A DNA stretch of 16,291 nucleotides, from positions 1 through 16,291 of the forward strand of contig JAKQBN010000012.1 of the NCBI GenBank assembly GCA_029559475.1, in the 5' to 3' direction. Of this stretch, positions 723 to 16,291 are shown in pieces. Under the pieces are notes generated by a model. It saw only the letters and a list, made by a program, of their open reading frames with translations, did no database searches and was not told the DNA's origin. Position 1 is the stretch's first letter; the number at the start of each line of letters is the position of its first letter. The translations under genes and the position numbers were made by a program. This DNA is from a bacterium (GTDB taxonomy: Bacteria; UBA4055).

Positions 723-3700
723 ATGAAGAAAATTTTGATCATTATACTTTCAGCATCGCTTTTTATTTTCGCATCGATAGTCCCTGTAGAACGAGCAAAG
801 AAAGTAGCGGAAAACTACTATAAAAACTATGCACCTACTGCCCAGAAGGGCAATGTTATCACAAGAACCATCGCCAAAAAATACGAAGGCGAAGTAACTT
901 ACTACGCTTTTGAATTCGGCAATCAGAACGGTTTTGTAATTGTAACCGCCGATGATGGTCTAAGAACGATCCTCGGATGGTCGTTCGACAGCGGACTCTG
1001 TTCAGAAGAGGATTTTTACAACATGAGAAATCCTTTCGCCAACAGAATGTCCTGGACCGACAGGGAAATAATCCAGGCAAGAAAAGATAAATTTGTAGAT
1101 GCTCAGGCTCAGAAAGATTGGAAAGACATGGAAAACAACATATTCCCGTCTTCAACAAAAGCTATCGTAGTTCCCGCTCTTGTTCAGACAAGATGGGGTC
1201 AGGGATATCCTTATAATGTAGCTTGCCCTCTGGACGGCGGACAGCCAACAATGAATGGCTGTGTTGCTCTTGCAATGGCTCAGGTAATGAGATATCACCA
1301 GGGACCCAGTAACCCTATGGGCTCACATTCTTATTTCTGGGAAGGCGAATATGATTCTTTAACATTATCAATAAATTATACAAATTCCACATATGATTAT
1401 TCCCTGATGCCCACAACAACAGAGGCAATCAACACTTCGGCAGAAAGTACAGAAGTTTCTGAACTCTGCTATGAGGCGGGTGTCTCCGTGGATATGGATT
1501 ACGGCACATTTGAAAGCGGAGGTTCTGGAGCATATTTAATTGATATTGTTGATGCTTTTAAAACGCATTTCAACTCATGGAGCGATATTTTTTATGTTTC
1601 GGTCGGAACTGTCACAGATGAAACAACTCAATCTGCAAATATTAACTCCGATCTCGACAACTCAATACCTGTAATATGGGCAGGATCAGGACCGGACGGT
1701 GGCCACTGCTTCATTCTTGACGGAAGAACCGATGATTACAATTACCATTTCAACTGGGGCTGGGAAGGAAGTATGGACGGATGGTATAAATTAAACAACC
1801 TGAACCCCGGAACAGAATTTACATCGTCGCAGCAAGCAGTATTTAAGATCAGAGTTGACAGTCCGCCCCCGGTTACTTGGCCATCTCCAAGAGATTTCTC
1901 TGGTTTCGTAACAAATTCTGAAGATGCCGTGCTTACATGGAAAATTCCTTATGAATATCATAACAGTGTATTAACTGGCTACAAGTTGTTCCGTAACGAT
2001 AAAGTTATAGCTGTGTTAGATTCCTCAGCCAGGATCTATACTGATAGTGCGCTTTGTCAGGGATCGTATCTTTATTATGCATCGGCTACATTTACGAATC
2101 CCGAAGGTGAATCTCACATCTCACAAAGCAAAACTATCGTAATAACAGAAAATAATGATTTTCCGGCACCGGTGAATGTCAATGCCGTCGTAATAGGCAG
2201 AACAGGCATTGATCTGTCATGGTATAAACCTTATATCGGTACGATATATCTGAGCGACGGATTCGAAAAAGGCAGCCTTTCCGAGTGGACACTGAAAAAA
2301 TCAAAGCTGTTCATACAGTCTGCAGACTGGTGGGCTGATGACACCGGCGACAGATGGTTCATTGAGGACGGATCCCAATTAGGCTCGACTGAATATATTC
2401 ACAGCGGTTCCTACGCAGCGGCTATCGGCTATTCTGCTGGGTATGAATCTTCTCATCCTATGAGCTGGCTTTGCTCTCCAGCTTTCGAGATCGAGCATAC
2501 CGGGGCCACGCTGAGTTTCTACAGATGGTATTATTCAGATACGGTTTACCCTCCTACTCAGCTCTATGTAAAACTTTACTGGGGTACATTCGCCGAAACT
2601 AAAGGATCTGACGTGCTGTCGAATTCTGAATCTGTTGATTTCTACGACACAACAGCTGAATCAGGACCGCATGCGTACGATTTTAAAACATATAATACAG
2701 CACATACCGGAGCAGAAACCATGGTATGCTTTATATTCAACTACTCTGATGGTTATCAGACTGCTGTTGATGATATTGTGATCGGTTACGGCTCGAAATA
2801 TGCGGGATCAAAAGGTTCAGTTGAGCCTACAGATTATCAGATCTTCAGGAACGGATCATTAGCGGCGACCGTGCACAGAACCGGACTCGAAGAATCATGG
2901 ACGGATACCGGATTTACAGATGGTACTAATGATTATTTTGTAAGATGCCTTTATCCTGCCGGGATTTCAATCCCGTCGAACAGAGCTTCGGCATTTATAG
3001 ATGCCAATCCTGCTCCGGGATTTCTTACTGGTAAACTTAGTACAAATCAGCAAGATATTGATCTTGACTGGTACGCACCCTGTCATTTGCCACCGGGGTG
3101 GTTCGGATATACTGGTGATGAACCGGATTCTTATTTCGATTATCTGGACAAAACCGAATATCCTGGTACATGGAAGAAAAAAAGAACTCAGTTTTACGGT
3201 TCGGAACTCGGACTGTATTATCCTATAAGGGTTGATTCCATAGCTGCAGCTTTTTATGAAGATGCTTCAGAGCCTTGGGTTGACAGCATTTTCACATTCA
3301 AGGTTTACACTAGAAACACTGCCGATACTGCCGATTCATTACTTTACGGACCTTCAGGCAACCTTGAAGCGGAAAGCGGATATTTCACAGTAATACATTT
3401 ACCGACTCAGCTTGTAATGAATAAACCCTGGTGGGTGGAAATAGAAGTCAGAGATGAAACGAACTCTTCACAACCCGGAGTATTTTCTTCTGTAGGCTCA
3501 AAAGGATTCTCTTCTGCTTACTATACTCCCGTCGGATCAGAACTTGCGGCAGGCTGGTATACCATTAGTAACGGAACTAAGCCGTACGAGTGGTGGATTA
3601 TCAGCTACTGTACAGGAACTGAGCCGGTAATAGCAAAAGACGGTTCGATTAATGGGAATAACGAAAGAGTTTTCGTTCTAGGACCTCAGGACGCCATCCT

Positions 3701-4232
3701 TGCTGCAGAAAAATTAAAACCGGTTAATAATTTAACCCTGACTTCAAAGCGGAATGTAAACAGTAAAGGTCTTTTAGGCTATCATATTTTCCGGGAAGGT
3801 GAAATGGTAGGTACAACGACCGAAACATTATGGACAGATTCCCTGGTTAAAAAGGAATACGGCGACTTAAGTTACTATGTAACGGCATTTTACAATAATC
3901 CAGCTGGTGAATCTGCTCCTTCGAACGAGATAACTATTTTAATTTTAGGCATTGAAGATAATATTCCCTATGGAACAGACCTCTCGCAAAATTATCCGAA
4001 TCCGTTCAATCCCGAGACGAACATCAAATTTTCGATCGCAAATAATACCGTTGTAAAACTAAAGATATATAATTCTGCAGGTCAGTTGGTAGCTTTCCCG
4101 GTGAACAAGTTCATGAATAAAGGCAGCTATAATGTCGTACTGAACGCTTCAAAATTAAGCGGAGGGTTCTATATATACAAACTTGAGGCTGACGGAAAAG
4201 AATTCACGAAGAAATTGACAATCATTAAGTAG
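723..4232 (+). CDS. Secreted C10 (streptopain-like) cysteine protease with adhesin-like tail and T9SS sorting domain
   Basis: Exported multidomain cysteine protease of 1169 aa. Order: signal peptide (1-18); Spi-type inhibitory prodomain (about 20-145); C10 peptidase (about 150-375) with TRWGQGYPYN, nucleophile C180 in MNGCVALAMAQ, H328 in GGHCFILDG and the NWGWEGSMDGWY loop; an intact fibronectin-III domain (about 381-477); a second Fn3 that starts at about 483, is interrupted by a MAM/cleaved-adhesin-like sandwich (about 503-695, SDGFEKGSL...) and resumes at about 700-758; a third Fn3 (from about 760) interrupted by another beta-rich domain (about 786-1000) and resuming at about 1014-1075; and a type IX sorting domain (about 1082-1169) with NYPNPFNPETNIKFSI and terminal KKLTIIK. 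The catalytic pair is intact, so it is probably active, released or anchored at the cell surface. The start follows a good Shine-Dalgarno. The next gene is a paralogue of its tail, 13 bases downstream. Substrate is unknown. Confidence 0.92.
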   Translation: MKKILIIILSASLFIFASIVPVERAKKVAENYYKNYAPTAQKGNVITRTIAKKYEGEVTYYAFEFGNQNGFVIVTADDGLRTILGWSFDSGLCSEEDFYNMRNPFANRMSWTDREIIQARKDKFVDAQAQKDWKDMENNIFPSSTKAIVVPALVQTRWGQGYPYNVACPLDGGQPTMNGCVALAMAQVMRYHQGPSNPMGSHSYFWEGEYDSLTLSINYTNSTYDYSLMPTTTEAINTSAESTEVSELCYEAGVSVDMDYGTFESGGSGAYLIDIVDAFKTHFNSWSDIFYVSVGTVTDETTQSANINSDLDNSIPVIWAGSGPDGGHCFILDGRTDDYNYHFNWGWEGSMDGWYKLNNLNPGTEFTSSQQAVFKIRVDSPPPVTWPSPRDFSGFVTNSEDAVLTWKIPYEYHNSVLTGYKLFRNDKVIAVLDSSARIYTDSALCQGSYLYYASATFTNPEGESHISQSKTIVITENNDFPAPVNVNAVVIGRTGIDLSWYKPYIGTIYLSDGFEKGSLSEWTLKKSKLFIQSADWWADDTGDRWFIEDGSQLGSTEYIHSGSYAAAIGYSAGYESSHPMSWLCSPAFEIEHTGATLSFYRWYYSDTVYPPTQLYVKLYWGTFAETKGSDVLSNSESVDFYDTTAESGPHAYDFKTYNTAHTGAETMVCFIFNYSDGYQTAVDDIVIGYGSKYAGSKGSVEPTDYQIFRNGSLAATVHRTGLEESWTDTGFTDGTNDYFVRCLYPAGISIPSNRASAFIDANPAPGFLTGKLSTNQQDIDLDWYAPCHLPPGWFGYTGDEPDSYFDYLDKTEYPGTWKKKRTQFYGSELGLYYPIRVDSIAAAFYEDASEPWVDSIFTFKVYTRNTADTADSLLYGPSGNLEAESGYFTVIHLPTQLVMNKPWWVEIEVRDETNSSQPGVFSSVGSKGFSSAYYTPVGSELAAGWYTISNGTKPYEWWIISYCTGTEPVIAKDGSINGNNERVFVLGPQDAILAAEKLKPVNNLTLTSKRNVNSKGLLGYHIFREGEMVGTTTETLWTDSLVKKEYGDLSYYVTAFYNNPAGESAPSNEITILILGIEDNIPYGTDLSQNYPNPFNPETNIKFSIANNTVVKLKIYNSAGQLVAFPVNKFMNKGSYNVVLNASKLSGGFYIYKLEADGKEFTKKLTIIK
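2178..3720 (+). repeat. Upstream copy of a ~1.5 kb paralogous adhesin module
   Basis: This part of the protease gene (split Fn3, MAM-like domain, second split Fn3 and its insert) is paralogous to 4600-6110 in the next gene. Long blocks match closely in protein, for example QLYVKLYWGTFAETKGS and GSELAAGWY in both. By eye, sampled nucleotide stretches are roughly three-quarters identical with many silent differences, so the duplication is not very recent. Confidence 0.85.
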
Positions 4233-4245
4233 AAAATGTGATATA

Positions 4246-6609
4246 ATGAAGAAAAAAATTGCTGTGTCTATTATTGCAGCGGTTGTTCTGCTTTTCGGGC
4301 AGGACTGGCCTGCTCCGGAGAATCTTAACGGCAGCATCGCAAACTACGAAGATGTGACTCTTACCTGGACACGACCGGCTGGAGTAAAAGCCGGAACTTT
4401 AACAGGCTATAAAGTTTACAGGGATAATGTCGTAATAGCCAGTCCGTCATCTTCTGAAACTTCATATAATGATAGCGATCTTTCAGCGGGTGATTATAAT
4501 TATTCTGTTACCGCAACCTATACGTCACCGGCAGGAGAATCCGTAAATTCCAACTTCAAAAATATCATAATTGTTGAGGACAGCAATTATCCTGTGGCCA
4601 CTCAGGTAGAAGCAACCGCAACCGGCAGAACACATATAGATCTGAACTGGATCAGACCTTATCTTGGAACAACTTTCTTCAGCGACGGTTTCGAATCAGG
4701 GAATCTTTCAGCGTGGACATTAAAAATATCAAAGATATTTACCGGAACCAGTTCCTGGTGGGCAGCTGACGACGGCACAAGATGGTTTTGTGAAGACGGA
4801 ACTAATTTTGGAGCGACATATATCCACAGCGGATCCTATTCGGCAGCAATAGATTATTCGGCAGGCGGCGGAGATCCCCGTCCGATGAGCTGGCTGTGCT
4901 CTCCGTCATTCAATCTTACACAGTCAAGTGCTACTCTTAAATTCTGGATGCGCTACAATTCAACTTCTTCATATCCGTTAACTCAGTTATATGTTAAATT
5001 GTATTGGGGTACTTTTGCAGAAACAAAAGGTTCTGCAGTACTTACAAATTCAGAAGCTGTTGATTTCTACGATACGATAGAAGAGACAAATGCCTACGCC
5101 TCACAAAAATCCTACACTACTGCTCACACCGGATCAGAAACTAGAATATGCTTTATTTATAACTATACAGGCGGTTATCCGGCGGCAGTAGATTATATAT
5201 CTATAGGCTATTATACTCAACCTGAAATTCTTGGTTATGAGGTTTACAGAAACGGTTCTTTGGCTTCAACTTTACCGGAAACGAGTACTTCTGAAACATG
5301 GACAGATACAGGATTCGCTGACGGATGGAATGAATATTATGTCAGATGCTTATATCCGACAGGCTCTTCAATACCATCGGAAAGAAGCTCGGCTTTTATT
5401 GATGCCAACCCTAAACCCGGATTTCTTTCAGGAGTACTTAACGCAAATCAGGCGGACGTTGACCTTGACTGGTACGCTCCTTATCACCAGCCTGCAGGAT
5501 GGTTCGGATATATCGGTGCTGAACCGGATTCATATTTTGATTATCTTGACAAAACAAACGATCCGGGAACTTGGAAGAAAAAAAGAACAAGAATGTACGG
5601 CGCAGATCTGGGACTTTACTATCCTATCACCGTAGATTCTATCGCTGCAGCTTTCTATGAAGACGCTGCAGAACCTTGGGCCGACAGCATGTTCACTTTC
5701 AAAGTATATACATTTAATACTGCAGGAACGGCCGACTCTGTGCTTTATACTTCTGGACTTCTTGAAGCAGAAAGCGGTTTCTTTACTTATCTGAAGCTGC
5801 CGACACCTCTGGTAATGGTAAAATCATGGTTCGTTGAATTTGAAGTAAGGGATAACACGAACTCGTCACAGCCGGGCGTATTCTCAAGCATAGGTACTGA
5901 CGGATTCTCTTCAACATACTATACTCCTACAGGATCAGAACTTGCGGCAGGCTGGTATTCAATAACTGACGGAACCAACCCGTACGAGTGGTGGATCATC
6001 AACTACTGTACAGGAACAGAACCGGTAATCGCAAAAGACGGATCTGTCGTAAGCCAGAAAGAAAAAGTCATCACCCTCGGACCTCAGGACGCTATAAAAG
6101 CAGCCAACAGAGAGATCGAGTACCCTGTTGTAAATAAACCGACAAGCTCAAAAGGTTTAACGAAATATAACGTATGGAGAAACGGTGTTGACATCGCTGA
6201 TGTTACAGGCGCGACTTCTTACAAAGACGTAGGCGCACCTGGAGGCGACAACACATACTACATCACTGCTGTTTACGCAAGCCCGACTGGCGAATCAGTA
6301 GGATGCGAATCAGTTGTTGTTAACGTACCTGCTTCTGCTCCTGGCGTACCTGCTAACCTGACCACTTCGATCGTAAGCGGCAACGTTTACATCAACTGGG
6401 ATGATGCAGTTAACGCGACAAGCTATGACGTTTATTCCTGCGCTACTCCGTACGGAACATACGCGTTCTTAGCAAACGTAGCAACCAGTGAATATACTTA
6501 CACCGGCGTTGCAGCTAACAGCAAAATGTTCTTCTACGTAGTTTCGAAAAACGCAAAATCAGCATCACCGAGAACTATTGAAATAGTAAGGCCGGCTTCC
6601 GCTAAGTAA
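4246..6609 (+). CDS. Secreted fibronectin-III/MAM-like adhesin-type protein, paralogue of the protease tail
   Basis: Predicted exported 787-aa protein with no protease domain. Order: signal peptide (about 1-20, hydrophobic AVSIIAAVVLLFG); intact Fn3 (about 22-112); a second Fn3 split by a MAM/cleaved-adhesin-like domain (about 143-325), resuming with GYEVYRNGSLAST; a third Fn3 from about 388 split by a second beta domain (about 412-610) and resuming with KYNVWRNGVD (to about 695); a final Fn3 (about 696-787). It closely follows the domain order of the preceding protein but ends in an extra Fn3 where that protein has its type IX sorting domain. Without a visible sorting domain its surface anchoring is unexplained. 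The start is 13 bases after the previous stop with no clear Shine-Dalgarno, suggesting translational coupling. The last ~470 bases use mostly C-ending codons (Asn nearly always AAC), unlike the rest. Likely role is binding to a surface or carbohydrate, or assisting the protease; this is inference. Confidence 0.8.
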   Translation: MKKKIAVSIIAAVVLLFGQDWPAPENLNGSIANYEDVTLTWTRPAGVKAGTLTGYKVYRDNVVIASPSSSETSYNDSDLSAGDYNYSVTATYTSPAGESVNSNFKNIIIVEDSNYPVATQVEATATGRTHIDLNWIRPYLGTTFFSDGFESGNLSAWTLKISKIFTGTSSWWAADDGTRWFCEDGTNFGATYIHSGSYSAAIDYSAGGGDPRPMSWLCSPSFNLTQSSATLKFWMRYNSTSSYPLTQLYVKLYWGTFAETKGSAVLTNSEAVDFYDTIEETNAYASQKSYTTAHTGSETRICFIYNYTGGYPAAVDYISIGYYTQPEILGYEVYRNGSLASTLPETSTSETWTDTGFADGWNEYYVRCLYPTGSSIPSERSSAFIDANPKPGFLSGVLNANQADVDLDWYAPYHQPAGWFGYIGAEPDSYFDYLDKTNDPGTWKKKRTRMYGADLGLYYPITVDSIAAAFYEDAAEPWADSMFTFKVYTFNTAGTADSVLYTSGLLEAESGFFTYLKLPTPLVMVKSWFVEFEVRDNTNSSQPGVFSSIGTDGFSSTYYTPTGSELAAGWYSITDGTNPYEWWIINYCTGTEPVIAKDGSVVSQKEKVITLGPQDAIKAANREIEYPVVNKPTSSKGLTKYNVWRNGVDIADVTGATSYKDVGAPGGDNTYYITAVYASPTGESVGCESVVVNVPASAPGVPANLTTSIVSGNVYINWDDAVNATSYDVYSCATPYGTYAFLANVATSEYTYTGVAANSKMFFYVVSKNAKSASPRTIEIVRPASAK
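4600..6110 (+). repeat. Downstream copy of the ~1.5 kb paralogous adhesin module
   Basis: Second copy of the module at 2178-3720. It covers the split Fn3 domains and their two inserted beta domains, ending at the shared GPQDAI segment. Similarity fades after this point, where this gene goes on with different Fn3 sequence and the protease gene goes to its sorting domain. Confidence 0.85.
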
Positions 6610-9066: not shown

Positions 9067-9654
9067 ATGAATTTAAACGACAGAAATATTGTATTAGCGT
9101 CAAAATCACCAAGGCGGAAAGAGCTTCTCGAGAACATAGGACTAAAATTCTCGGTAAAACCCGCTGAAATCGAAGAAATCCACAGGGGAGTATCGGGATT
9201 CGGCGAGATCGTGATGGATCTTGCGGAACAGAAAGGTGAAGCGGTTGGTAAACTCATGTTCCATGACAGAATAATAATTGCCTCTGATACGATCGTGGTA
9301 ATTGATGGCGAAATTCTCAACAAGCCTGAGGATAGAGATCATGCATTTAAAATGCTTAGGCAGATAAGCGGCAGAACTCACAGCGTATTCACTTCTCTGT
9401 ACGTTTACGACGGTTATCTTAAAAAAACCGTAAAAGAATACACTGAAACCAAAGTCGAGTTTTATGAACTGACTGACGAACAGATAAACGATTACCTTGA
9501 TACGCACGAACCTTTCGACAAAGCCGGAGCTTACGGTATCCAGGGATACGGCTCGAAATTCATTAAAAAGATCGACGGCTGCTTTTTCAGCGTTATGGGT
9601 TTTCCCGTACCGTTATTTTCACAAAAAATGTATAAATTCGGATATCTGCTATGA
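9067..9654 (+). CDS. maf: Maf-family nucleoside triphosphate pyrophosphatase (dTTP/UTP type)
   Basis: Hydrolyses non-canonical or excess nucleoside triphosphates to monophosphate and pyrophosphate; the family is also tied to division arrest. The 195-aa protein has the full motif set: ASKSPRRKELL (11-21), ASDTIV with catalytic D74, NKP with K86, QISGRTHSVFT (99-109), AGAYGIQG with Q159, and GCFFSVMGFP. The AGAYGIQG and GRTHSV forms match the YhdE (dTTP/UTP) branch rather than the YceF (7-methyl-GTP) branch. It follows purM after 7 bases, with only a poor ribosome binding site, and its TGA overlaps the ATG of the next gene by 4 bases, so translation is probably coupled through all three. Confidence 0.93.
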   Translation: MNLNDRNIVLASKSPRRKELLENIGLKFSVKPAEIEEIHRGVSGFGEIVMDLAEQKGEAVGKLMFHDRIIIASDTIVVIDGEILNKPEDRDHAFKMLRQISGRTHSVFTSLYVYDGYLKKTVKEYTETKVEFYELTDEQINDYLDTHEPFDKAGAYGIQGYGSKFIKKIDGCFFSVMGFPVPLFSQKMYKFGYLL

Positions 9655-10886
9655 AAAAAACTATACTGCTTATAACCTTCCTCTGTTTTTCTCTGATGCT
9701 GTACGGAGCCGGAGTAGTCGTTAAGGACAAAATGATTACTTTAAAATGTACCGGAATATCCTACATGGGATCAGGGATCACTGTTGACGATGCTAAGGCT
9801 TTCGCCGTTAACGACGCCAAGAGAAGCGCGCTTGAACAGGTCGGGACTTATCTCGAGTCCCATATGGAACTTTCCAACAATATGGTGACAAAAGACGAGA
9901 TAGTAACCTATACCGCAGGAGTATTAAAAGCGGAAATCCTAAAAGCCGAGAACAAGGTCATCGAGGGTACTTTCGCTATTGAAGTTACCATAAATGCGAC
10001 TATAGACATGGACTATCTTAATGACAGGCTTGCAAAAATCAAAGACGACACTGAATTAAGAAAAATGCTTGAAGAACAGAAAAGACTGAATGACAAGCTT
10101 ACGAAAGAGATCAATCAGCTGAAAACTACAAAACAGGAATCTGTTCCCGAAAAGAGTAAGAACATCGCTAAATCACTCGAAGCAGCAGATTATTTCGAAA
10201 TCGGATTCAAGGCTCAGGAGAACGGTCTTTACGAAGAAGCTTTAAAGAATTATAAGAAAGCGATCGATCTAAATCCGAAAATAGCTCAAATTTATAATAA
10301 CAGAGGTTTGGTTCATTATTTTATGAAGGACTACGCGAAAGCCGAGAGCAATTTTGATAAGGCTATAGAACTCGATCCGAAACTCTGCATGTCCTACAAC
10401 AACAAAGCGATAATTTATTACGAAAGGCGGCTTTACGAACAGGCTATAAAATATTTCAACATGGTGATCGAACTCGACCCCAAACTCGAACAACCCTACT
10501 ACAACAGGGGATTTGCGTATTACAAGCTTAACCAGATGGATCTGTGCATTAAAGACCTGAAAACCTACCAGAACATGGCAAAAAATAAATACGGAGACGA
10601 ATCCAGAGTCGCAAAGTTCATAAAAGATAATGAAAAGTATGTAACTCCCGCTCCTGCGACTCCCCAATCCGACCTTATATCTGTGCCGAATCTGTACAAT
10701 AACAGTCAGGAAGAAGCAAAGAAGAAGATCAAACAGGCCGGATTAGTTCTGGGTCTGATCAAATCGGTTACAGATGAGGATAAAGCCTTTAACCGCGTGA
10801 TCGGACAGTCTTTGAAGAAAGGGGAAAAGGTGAAAAAGGGAGCGGTGATCGATATTACGGTAAACGTTGAAGCCAGCGGCTGGTAA
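9651..10886 (+). CDS. Exported TPR protein with N-terminal LPP20/FlgT-like and C-terminal PASTA domain
   Basis: Predicted envelope protein of 411 aa. A signal peptide (1-20, LLITFLCFSLMLYGA) is followed by an alpha/beta domain (about 24-120: TLKCTGISYMGSG, AVNDAKRSALEQVGTYLES, FAIEVTINATID) resembling LPP20/FlgT N-terminal domains. A charged coiled-coil stretch (about 125-160) leads to about three to four tetratricopeptide repeats (about 177-310), each ending like AIxLDPK. A Pro/Ala linker precedes one PASTA domain (about 341-407: SVPNLYNNSQEEAKKKI, GLVLG, VIGQSLKKGEKVKKG). PASTA domains usually bind peptidoglycan fragments or beta-lactams in kinases and penicillin-binding proteins, and a single one on a TPR protein is uncommon. 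No lipobox cysteine is seen. It overlaps maf by ATGA. The role is probably as a scaffold in the periplasm; unproven. Confidence 0.85.
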   Translation: MKKTILLITFLCFSLMLYGAGVVVKDKMITLKCTGISYMGSGITVDDAKAFAVNDAKRSALEQVGTYLESHMELSNNMVTKDEIVTYTAGVLKAEILKAENKVIEGTFAIEVTINATIDMDYLNDRLAKIKDDTELRKMLEEQKRLNDKLTKEINQLKTTKQESVPEKSKNIAKSLEAADYFEIGFKAQENGLYEEALKNYKKAIDLNPKIAQIYNNRGLVHYFMKDYAKAESNFDKAIELDPKLCMSYNNKAIIYYERRLYEQAIKYFNMVIELDPKLEQPYYNRGFAYYKLNQMDLCIKDLKTYQNMAKNKYGDESRVAKFIKDNEKYVTPAPATPQSDLISVPNLYNNSQEEAKKKIKQAGLVLGLIKSVTDEDKAFNRVIGQSLKKGEKVKKGAVIDITVNVEASGW

Positions 10887-13543: not shown

Positions 13544-16291
13544 ATGAATGAGGGCGATACAGTAAGAAAACTACGCGCGATAATGTTCTCGGACATCGTC
13601 GGGTATTCAAAGATGATGCAGGCGAATGAAACTGAAGCCCTGAAGCTTTTGCAGAAACACAAGGAAGTCGTTACCGAGATATCGGCTAAATACGGCGGAA
13701 ATATTATCAAACATATCGGCGACGAGATCCTTGTCGAATCTGAAAGCGCGGTCATGCTCGTTTCATGCGCAAAGGAACTGCAGAAATATTTCGAGGAAAG
13801 AAACTCTACCGTACCAAAAGCAAGAGAACTCTGGGTAAGGATAGGAATTCACATCGGCGATGTAATAATCAAGGAAAACGACATATTCGGGGACGGAGTT
13901 AACATCGCTTCGAGGATCAGACCGATCGCAAGGCCCGGAGGGATCGTTATTACACACTCTGTCCTGATCCTCTTAGGAAATCAGGGCGACATAAAATGCA
14001 GTTTCTTAGGTAATAAAAAGCTTAAGAATATTAAAGAGAAAGTGCAGGTTTACGAAGTTCTTCTGGACTCGCAGACCGATCAGCTCCATAATAACGGCAG
14101 ACCTTTCGAACTGAACCGTGATAACATTCTCAAGATATATCTGCCGATAGGACTAACCTTTTTCTTTCTGTTCCTGATGTTTTTCTTAATGGCTTTCAAC
14201 AATTTCACGGATTATGAGGAAGATTATTACAGATCGGACTATAAGTCGTCTTACGAAATAACTCAGCAGATCAAGAGTTCTAAAAATGTGAAAGCGAATT
14301 ACTTCAACATAGTGTCCTCGCCTGAAGATGAATCTGACAAAATAATCCGTTATTACAGACAGATGAATTCCTCTGAGCCGGATAATCCGAAAACGGCTTT
14401 ATTTTTAGCTGCTGCCTACCTGCATTCGGGAAGAAGCGGAAATATGCTTGACAGCGCTGCTATCCTTATCAGAAAAGCGGAACGGTCAGGACTTAACAGC
14501 GTTTATCTTAAGATCTTAAAGCTTGATATATATACTCAAATACGTTCTAGGATGAACGCCGAATATCTCGCTCAAAATCTTTCATCGGAATATTCCGGTA
14601 ACCCGCTGGTTCTTTTTAAGTGCGCCGGTGTTTATAGTGACCTGTGCAAAGATACTGATAAAGCATCTCTCCTCTACAGGAAAGCCCTCAATGAATTTTC
14701 CGATTATGCCGCGGCGATGAACGCACTATCAGAAATGGAATACGACAGATACGAACCTGGTAAGGCAAAGGCTATTTCTGATTCCTCTCTTGCGGTTAAC
14801 CCCTCCTGCCCCGGATCTGTCAGTCAAGCCGTAAAAGTTTATACCGCGCTTTCCGAATTCGATAAAGCCCGCAAAGTCCTGGAGCAGCTCCCAGATGAGG
14901 ATGTTAACAAATATCTTCTTAACGCGAAGATCAACCTTATCGAGAACGATCCTGCTGCGGCTCTCGAATGCATTAACGAAGGCCAGGCGGAGTTCCCGAC
15001 CGAATCAAGGCTTATTGATGCGTACTACAATATACAAAAAATAATCACACTATCTGATTCGATACAACAGAAGGAAAGTTCTGTTTCCTCCAGCAAAAAC
15101 AAGTGGATAAGTTCATGGGAAGACGCAGTTAAAACTTCTTCAAAAGAAAAGAAACCTCTGCTTATTGCAGCGCTGGACAATGAAAATATTTCATCAAAAT
15201 ATCTTGAATTCGCACTGACTCAGGATGAAATAGCCGAGGCTGCAGGCGATGCTGTTCTGTACAGACTTTACCGCCACAGCGACAAAAAGCTTCTCGACGA
15301 ATTCGGAATAACAGGTTTCCCCGCTCTTATCCTTACAGATGAGAACAAATATGTTATAAGATCATTCACCAACACTAAAGGAAATATTTCAGACCGTGAG
15401 GTCGTTTATTCCTTCATAAAAGAATCTGTCGAACTCGGAAAACGAAAACTGTCGATGGAAAAAGATACGGAGGAGAACCGCTACAAAACGGCAAGGGATT
15501 TTTCGCATGCGGAGGAACTCGCTCTGGAATTCGAGATACCTGTCATAGTCGTTCTTTCCCCGAAAGGGTCCGCGTTTTCGGAAACGTATCTTAAGCAGAC
15601 GATTTTCAACCCCGGCTTCATGGAGAATTACAGGAAAACAGTGCTTCTTTCAGCTTCTGAAGATGAGATCCCGGTTCTGGCCAAAAAATACAATACAAGT
15701 AAATTCCCCGCCGTTCTGTTTTTTAACGAGGATATGAACCTTATTTCGTTAAAATACGGAGTAATGCCCCAGAAAGTGCTCGCGGCGGAGATCGACAAGA
15801 TCAGACTTTTTAGAAAAAGAAAGGACATGCCTAAAGAAGAAATAAACTGGGTATATGATCAGAAAGAAGCCGCCCGTTTCTCCGCTCAGGAAGGAAAGAA
15901 CCTTTTCGTTTATTTTTCAGGTTCTGATGAAGAAGTTTACAGCCCTCAAGAGAACATTTTTTCCGATTATGAGATAATTAAAAAGATCAACTCTTCTTAC
16001 ATACCGCTGTATCTCGACGGGAAAAATTCGGATCTTTATAAAAAAGGTGAAACTGGATCTCTGCCTGCTGTCGGATTTATGAACCGGTTCGGCGATCTGA
16101 TATATTGTTCAGCTCTTCCCGAGGATAAATTCGCGCTAAATTCATTTTTGGATTTCAAAACGAATTCCGATATTCTTTTAAGCATCGGCAGCCGCAGTTT
16201 TAAAAGATTTCTTATGAAAGCGGATGAAAATTTTATGATGCTTAAAAACAGACTGTACGAATCCGCTGGGACCGGCCTTATCACATCGATT
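13544..16291 (+). CDS. Class III nucleotide cyclase fused to membrane segment, TPR-like region and three thioredoxin-like domains, 3' end missing
   Basis: The frame is open from ATG 13544 to the right edge (916 codons, no stop). Residues 10-172 form a class III cyclase of the type often fused to TPRs: FSDIVGYSKMM (metal D17), IKHIGDEIL (K56, metal D60), GIHIGDVI, and DIFGDGVNIASRI with D113, N120 and R124. The K56/D113 pair predicts ATP as substrate, giving cAMP. One membrane segment (about 197-219) follows, so the rest should be extracytoplasmic. Residues about 280-500 are helical, TPR-like repeats (ASLLYRKALNEFSDYAAAMN). Three thioredoxin_7/DUF255-like domains follow at about 521-630, 650-755 and 768-865, each with the cis-proline (GFPALIL, KFPAVLF, SLPAVGF) but without CxxC. 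AAGG 7 bases upstream is a weak ribosome binding site. No sign of a frameshift. It is probably the last seen member of the pnp operon. The sensed signal is unknown. Confidence 0.85.
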   Translation, partial: MNEGDTVRKLRAIMFSDIVGYSKMMQANETEALKLLQKHKEVVTEISAKYGGNIIKHIGDEILVESESAVMLVSCAKELQKYFEERNSTVPKARELWVRIGIHIGDVIIKENDIFGDGVNIASRIRPIARPGGIVITHSVLILLGNQGDIKCSFLGNKKLKNIKEKVQVYEVLLDSQTDQLHNNGRPFELNRDNILKIYLPIGLTFFFLFLMFFLMAFNNFTDYEEDYYRSDYKSSYEITQQIKSSKNVKANYFNIVSSPEDESDKIIRYYRQMNSSEPDNPKTALFLAAAYLHSGRSGNMLDSAAILIRKAERSGLNSVYLKILKLDIYTQIRSRMNAEYLAQNLSSEYSGNPLVLFKCAGVYSDLCKDTDKASLLYRKALNEFSDYAAAMNALSEMEYDRYEPGKAKAISDSSLAVNPSCPGSVSQAVKVYTALSEFDKARKVLEQLPDEDVNKYLLNAKINLIENDPAAALECINEGQAEFPTESRLIDAYYNIQKIITLSDSIQQKESSVSSSKNKWISSWEDAVKTSSKEKKPLLIAALDNENISSKYLEFALTQDEIAEAAGDAVLYRLYRHSDKKLLDEFGITGFPALILTDENKYVIRSFTNTKGNISDREVVYSFIKESVELGKRKLSMEKDTEENRYKTARDFSHAEELALEFEIPVIVVLSPKGSAFSETYLKQTIFNPGFMENYRKTVLLSASEDEIPVLAKKYNTSKFPAVLFFNEDMNLISLKYGVMPQKVLAAEIDKIRLFRKRKDMPKEEINWVYDQKEAARFSAQEGKNLFVYFSGSDEEVYSPQENIFSDYEIIKKINSSYIPLYLDGKNSDLYKKGETGSLPAVGFMNRFGDLIYCSALPEDKFALNSFLDFKTNSDILLSIGSRSFKRFLMKADENFMMLKNRLYESAGTGLITSI

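Follow-up and report, generated by a model that had tools for sequence, protein, structure and literature searches.

What kind of receptor arises when a nucleotidyl cyclase is joined, through a membrane span, to an array of TPR-like repeats and thioredoxin folds devoid of the CxxC motif, and what could such an array perceive? The question is raised by an open reading frame (13544-16291, plus strand, 916 aa) that runs open to the end of the window, the whole 16,291-nucleotide stretch of DNA analysed here. The window is the entire contig C29 of a 2.28 Mb assembly of 83 contigs that is 92% complete. Its final 141 bases recur, without a single difference and in frame, at the end of contig C22 (minus strand); both copies lie at contig ends, and the match looks like an assembly k-mer overlap. 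Joining C29 to C22, which supplies the missing C-terminus, gives a cyclase protein of about 1254 aa. Uninterrupted orthologues of 1253-1255 aa are found in five genomes (G001, G002, G007, G009 and G011), with the same architecture and gene order as the window protein, and partial orthologues lie at contig ends in four others (G003, G008, G010 and G012). The array is full length in six genomes and fragmentary in four more, and gene order is constant wherever the context is visible. Because the overlap, the in-frame continuation and the five independent full-length orthologues agree, an assembly artefact or a truncated gene is ruled out. The protein is laid out as follows.

13544..14065, plus strand: class III nucleotidyl cyclase domain, residues 1-174 (PF00211)
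14126..14200, plus strand: predicted single transmembrane helix, residues about 195-219 (hydropathy)
14207..15055, plus strand: first extracytoplasmic TPR block, residues 222-504 (TPR_19, AlphaFold2, VIA-align)
15083..15445, plus strand: thioredoxin-fold unit 1, residues 514-634, no CxxC (Thioredoxin_7 at 521-596, model topology, alignment)
15482..15808, plus strand: thioredoxin-fold unit 2, residues 647-755, no CxxC (Thioredoxin_2 at 707-748, profile match to unit 1)
15833..16156, plus strand: thioredoxin-fold unit 3, residues 764-871, no CxxC (Thioredoxin_7, profile match to unit 1, model topology)
16157..16291, plus strand: start of the second TPR block, residues 872-916 (remainder in contig C22)
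L003:7281-8438, minus strand: remainder of the cyclase, to residue 1254 (contig C22, 141-bp in-frame overlap)

The cyclase domain and its membrane span

The N-terminal domain matches Pfam Guanylate_cyc (PF00211) at residues 12-170 (E 1.4e-16; 61.1 bits against a curated cut-off of 21.9), a family that also scores above its cut-off in the orthologues, and the nearest solved sequence is 3mr7 (E 2.8e-33). The catalytic residues that a preliminary description had listed as intact, D17, K56, D60, D113, N120 and R124, are all present and invariant across the nine sequences covering the domain; this conservation rules out a degenerate cyclase. We take D17 and D60 to be the metal aspartates, K56 and D113 the base residues, and N120 and R124 the transition-state residues of class III cyclases, and the Lys/Asp pair predicts ATP as the substrate. 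Pairwise identity averages 82% for the cyclase domain and 45-60% for the extracytoplasmic domains. The enzyme is therefore under constraint, and we infer that it is active.

Hydropathy analysis gives one segment above threshold in the protein, starting at about residue 195, in keeping with the span placed earlier at about 197-219. One predicted helix thus lies between the cyclase and the external domain, the arrangement that defines a single-span receptor-type cyclase. This profile, together with the need of the cyclase for cytoplasmic ATP, suggests that the array lies outside the cytoplasmic membrane. An acidic stretch directly follows the helix in all orthologues. The linker between the cyclase and the membrane (residues 175-194) is short and not conserved among orthologues, so it gives no positive indication that a signal-transducing element lies there.

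Thioredoxin folds between two TPR blocks

Beyond the helix, the helical repeat region noted in the preliminary description proves to be a TPR block. TPR_19 matches the window protein with E 2.3e-10 (score 41.1, cut-off 25), an AlphaFold2 model of residues 222-916 gives the block a pLDDT of about 90, and VIA-align of the model returns Z of about 20 to APC/C TPR subunits. Structure prediction of the missing C-terminus, proposed earlier as a check, brings in a second TPR block that was beyond the first view of the locus: it spans residues 872-1254, scores 34.9 with TPR_2 (cut-off 27) and was also modelled with AlphaFold2. The thioredoxin units are placed between these two blocks and so are not the whole sensor. 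The anatomy of the proposed TPR and thioredoxin sensor stands, but it has to be extended to include the second block.

Three lines of evidence support the thioredoxin units. Scored over the whole protein, Thioredoxin_7 (best stretch 521-596) reaches E 1e-6 and 29.2 against a cut-off of 27, and Thioredoxin_2 (best stretch 707-748) reaches E 7e-7 and 30.0 against the same value; searched singly, each unit falls below the Pfam cut-off, with unit 3 alone giving E 0.0064 to Thioredoxin_7. Profile comparison matches unit 1 to unit 2 (E 4e-8) and to unit 3 (E 9e-8), and the match between units 2 and 3 is weak. Finally, structure prediction, the check by which the preliminary description would have a thioredoxin fold within 521-865 refuted, was made with AlphaFold2 and shows beta-alpha thioredoxin topology with fair confidence in two units, at a pLDDT of about 80 for unit 1 and about 70 for unit 3. 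Of the three folds proposed earlier, units 1 and 3 have Pfam, profile matches and modelled topology behind them; unit 2, with a low pLDDT of about 50, is a probable fold supported by its Thioredoxin_2 stretch and its profile match to unit 1. Confidence in the relative placement of the domains is low (pTM 0.55-0.61).

Foldseek matches to the model, all with low whole-chain TM-scores, include PDILT, ERp44, PDI, ERdj5 and calsequestrin, each of them a tandem thioredoxin-fold protein; VIA-align of the model is filled by TPR matches and so did not probe the thioredoxin part. Calsequestrin (1a8y), PDILT (5xf7) and ERp44 share the tandem folds of the window protein, and calsequestrin has three of them without CxxC. 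Unlike the window protein, calsequestrin and the PDI-family proteins are soluble proteins of the eukaryotic ER or SR, without TPR or cyclase. The array is not strongly acidic, and calsequestrin-like calcium storage is therefore not suggested.

Alignment with bacterial Thioredoxin_7 (PF13899) proteins shows what has been kept and what has been lost. All three units have the same succession of strands and helices as these proteins, and their cis-Pro segment as well, but both cysteines of the WCxxC or CxxC motif that the aligned proteins retain are gone; in units 1 and 2, the position of the second Cys is aligned with an invariant Ser. In the orthologue alignments, CxxC is absent from all three units of every orthologue, as the preliminary description had seen for the window protein, and the units lack the active site that marks a catalytic thioredoxin or disulfide oxidoreductase. 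Units 1 and 2 contain no Cys in any full-length orthologue, and no array Cys is common to all. Unit 2, the most conserved extracytoplasmic unit with a mean pairwise identity of 60% (units 1 and 3 and the two TPR blocks reach 45-49%), appears to be functionally central.

Distribution and gene neighbourhood

The cyclase-array gene is present in 10 of 13 family genomes and is not an isolated oddity. The locus of one genome missing from this count, G005, is a run of N (L124:1-12001, G005:C5), so its absence is not evidence of loss. Close relatives that carry a name are Candidatus Delongbacteria, except for one labelled 'uncultured bacterium'. G004, a family member without the cyclase, has two adjacent Thioredoxin_7 genes (G004:C66:5268-6115).

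Outside the family, the receptor plan recurs and the thioredoxin folds do not. Over 386 genomes, profiles made from the whole external region and from the thioredoxin array find only generic TPR or single thioredoxin-domain matches there, and a scan of genome contigs, seeded with two cyclase peptides only, finds no full-length relative outside Delongbacteria. The best-scoring outside cyclase (L155, G041:C17) belongs to the same cyclase subfamily and has the same order of cyclase, membrane span and TPR; it differs in its CBM53-like end, in its length (819 aa versus 1254 aa) and in that no thioredoxin folds were found in it. None of the three genomes examined from its phylum has the array. TPR is found in about 21 of the 36 nearest cyclases from other families, and thioredoxin families are not among the 25 commonest in these 36 (each in at least four members). 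Profiles of the thioredoxin units match no cyclase ORF; weak phmmer matches of single thioredoxin proteins were rejected as falling in other ORFs or, in the one case inspected, in TPR. By eye, none of the PF13899 matches listed over the 386 genomes shares an ORF with a listed cyclase outside the family. The combination of cyclase and thioredoxin is not catalogued in Pfam or NCBIfam, and no paper on such a fusion was found in the literature searched, where the nearest case is a Leptospirillum cluster of separate cyclase, TPR and thioredoxin-fold genes (PMC7084401).

The preliminary description expected that class III cyclases are joined to TPR elsewhere, which the outside cyclases bear out, and knew of no family with this architecture, in keeping with the searches of Pfam, NCBIfam, the 386 genomes and the literature, which gave no such fusion outside the phylum. 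Since a cyclase, membrane span and TPR occur together elsewhere and these searches found no combination with thioredoxin, what is new is the thioredoxin insert within an already known type of receptor. The array protein seems to be an envelope sensor of a type not yet catalogued.

The genes around the cyclase follow the order DHODH, AIR-synthase-like, Maf, TPR-PASTA protein, gamma-carbonic-anhydrase-like, PNPase, cyclase, 3xPASTA membrane protein and 525-aa signal-peptide protein, with slight variation between genomes in the small upstream genes. Three neighbours bear on the array.

Window 9651-10886, upstream of the cyclase: TPR protein with one PASTA domain
L003:6441-7262, downstream of the cyclase: 3xPASTA membrane protein
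L003:4845-6422, minus strand: 525-aa protein with a signal peptide and a conserved IPARDIYD-like N-terminus

The 3xPASTA gene begins 18 bp past the cyclase stop and accompanies the cyclase in every genome in which the 3' side is visible; G004 and G006, both without the cyclase, have no close relative of it. Its product resembles the transmembrane and PASTA part of PknB/PrkC-type PASTA kinases, matching PknB_PASTA_kin at positions 341-562 with E 1.3e-29, although at 103.7 bits it lies far below the cut-off of 450. Pfam shows PASTA only. PASTA Ser/Thr kinases are defined by a kinase domain plus a PASTA tail at an equivalog score; the downstream protein has no kinase domain, and the adjoining enzyme is a cyclase. 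The PASTA domain of the upstream TPR-PASTA protein has a close counterpart in the 3xPASTA protein (54% over 67 aa), and both proteins may act in one envelope system.

The 525-aa protein, whose match to the TonB plug is non-significant (E 0.044), is conserved across the phylum, including in G004 and G006, and is therefore not tied to the cyclase. In G002 its gene is split into two ORFs (L024:851-2333), which suggests a broken gene or a misassembly. In G008, a Ser/Thr kinase of 1263 aa that contains an AAA-like region is encoded some 7 kb away from the gene of the 525-aa protein (L031:11256-15047, minus strand). Elsewhere in the window, positions 723-4232 encode a C10-family peptidase with a Spi inhibitor propeptide and a Por secretion tail, followed at 4246-6609 by a tandem partial copy that matches its residues 386-1082 at 59% and lacks the peptidase domain.

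Proposed envelope sensing and its alternatives

This anatomy is best accommodated, in our view and with moderate confidence, by a class III adenylyl cyclase of the single-span receptor type whose non-catalytic external TPR and thioredoxin array would bind protein and report the state of the envelope as cAMP. Two chains would pair to form the cyclase dimer, and the array would provide a non-catalytic platform for protein or peptide binding, a role that TPR and redox-dead thioredoxin folds play in other proteins. The bound ligand would most likely be an envelope protein, possibly the co-encoded 3xPASTA membrane protein. Its binding would shift the dimer and alter cAMP output, which could then be read by cNMP-binding regulators of the same genome. 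Proteins with PF00027 are found in all 13 family genomes, five of them in the genome of the window, and possible cAMP readers therefore exist.

The hypothetical partnership of the array with the 3xPASTA protein draws on gene linkage and on the binding of muropeptides, which are cell-wall fragments, by the PASTA region of PknB (PMC3145798). By the same analogy, one can picture a two-gene system in which the kinase-less PASTA protein would bind cell-wall fragments or another envelope cue and dock on the array of the neighbouring cyclase, turning the state of the cell wall or of envelope proteostasis into cAMP instead of protein phosphorylation; we offer this version as speculative and rather improbable.

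The strongest competitor, though somewhat unlikely, is that the array is a scaffold and not a sensor, holding a cyclase that is constitutively active, or regulated from the cytoplasm, at a site of envelope assembly, such as the neighbouring PASTA and signal-peptide proteins, and so positioning cAMP synthesis. Scaffolding is a typical role of TPR and dead thioredoxin folds, the gene is linked to those of the PASTA membrane protein and the 525-aa signal-peptide protein, and the unconserved linker fits a passive tether. Against this, the large external domains of single-span receptor-type cyclases usually regulate them.

A second alternative, envelope proteostasis, is brought to life by E. coli CnoX/YbbN (PDB 3QOU), a protein holdase in which, as in the array here, a non-reductase thioredoxin fold (SXXC) is joined to TPR (PMC8129009). 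A periplasmic holdase or chaperone fused to a cyclase would bind unfolded envelope proteins as CnoX does and signal proteostasis through cAMP; the matches of the model to PDI-like proteins and the conservation of unit 2 agree with this. However, the likeness to CnoX is one of fold, and the order and number of domains differ. CnoX is a soluble, cytoplasmic protein in which a single N-terminal thioredoxin domain precedes TPR, has no membrane span or cyclase, and retains the SXXC Cys and a working Cys63, whereas the window protein has a cyclase, a span and three units between TPR blocks. We consider this reading, live as it is, to be unlikely. Control of the cyclase by disulfide chemistry in the array, suggested by the thioredoxin folds and by the few Cys that most orthologues have in their first TPR block, is largely refuted by the cysteine conservation described above and by the presence of only two Cys in the entire G007 orthologue, and is very improbable.

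Many different sensor domains are attached to bacterial class III cyclases, and tandem non-catalytic thioredoxin folds set between TPR blocks were not found as a cyclase sensor in the collections and papers searched. If the envelope-sensing model is true, PDI-like redox-dead arrays would serve as receptors outside eukaryotes, and a phylum known here from metagenome assemblies alone would gain a concrete, expressible signalling protein. The close linkage of the cyclase to a kinase-less PASTA gene would make a connection between the cell wall and cAMP open to direct testing.
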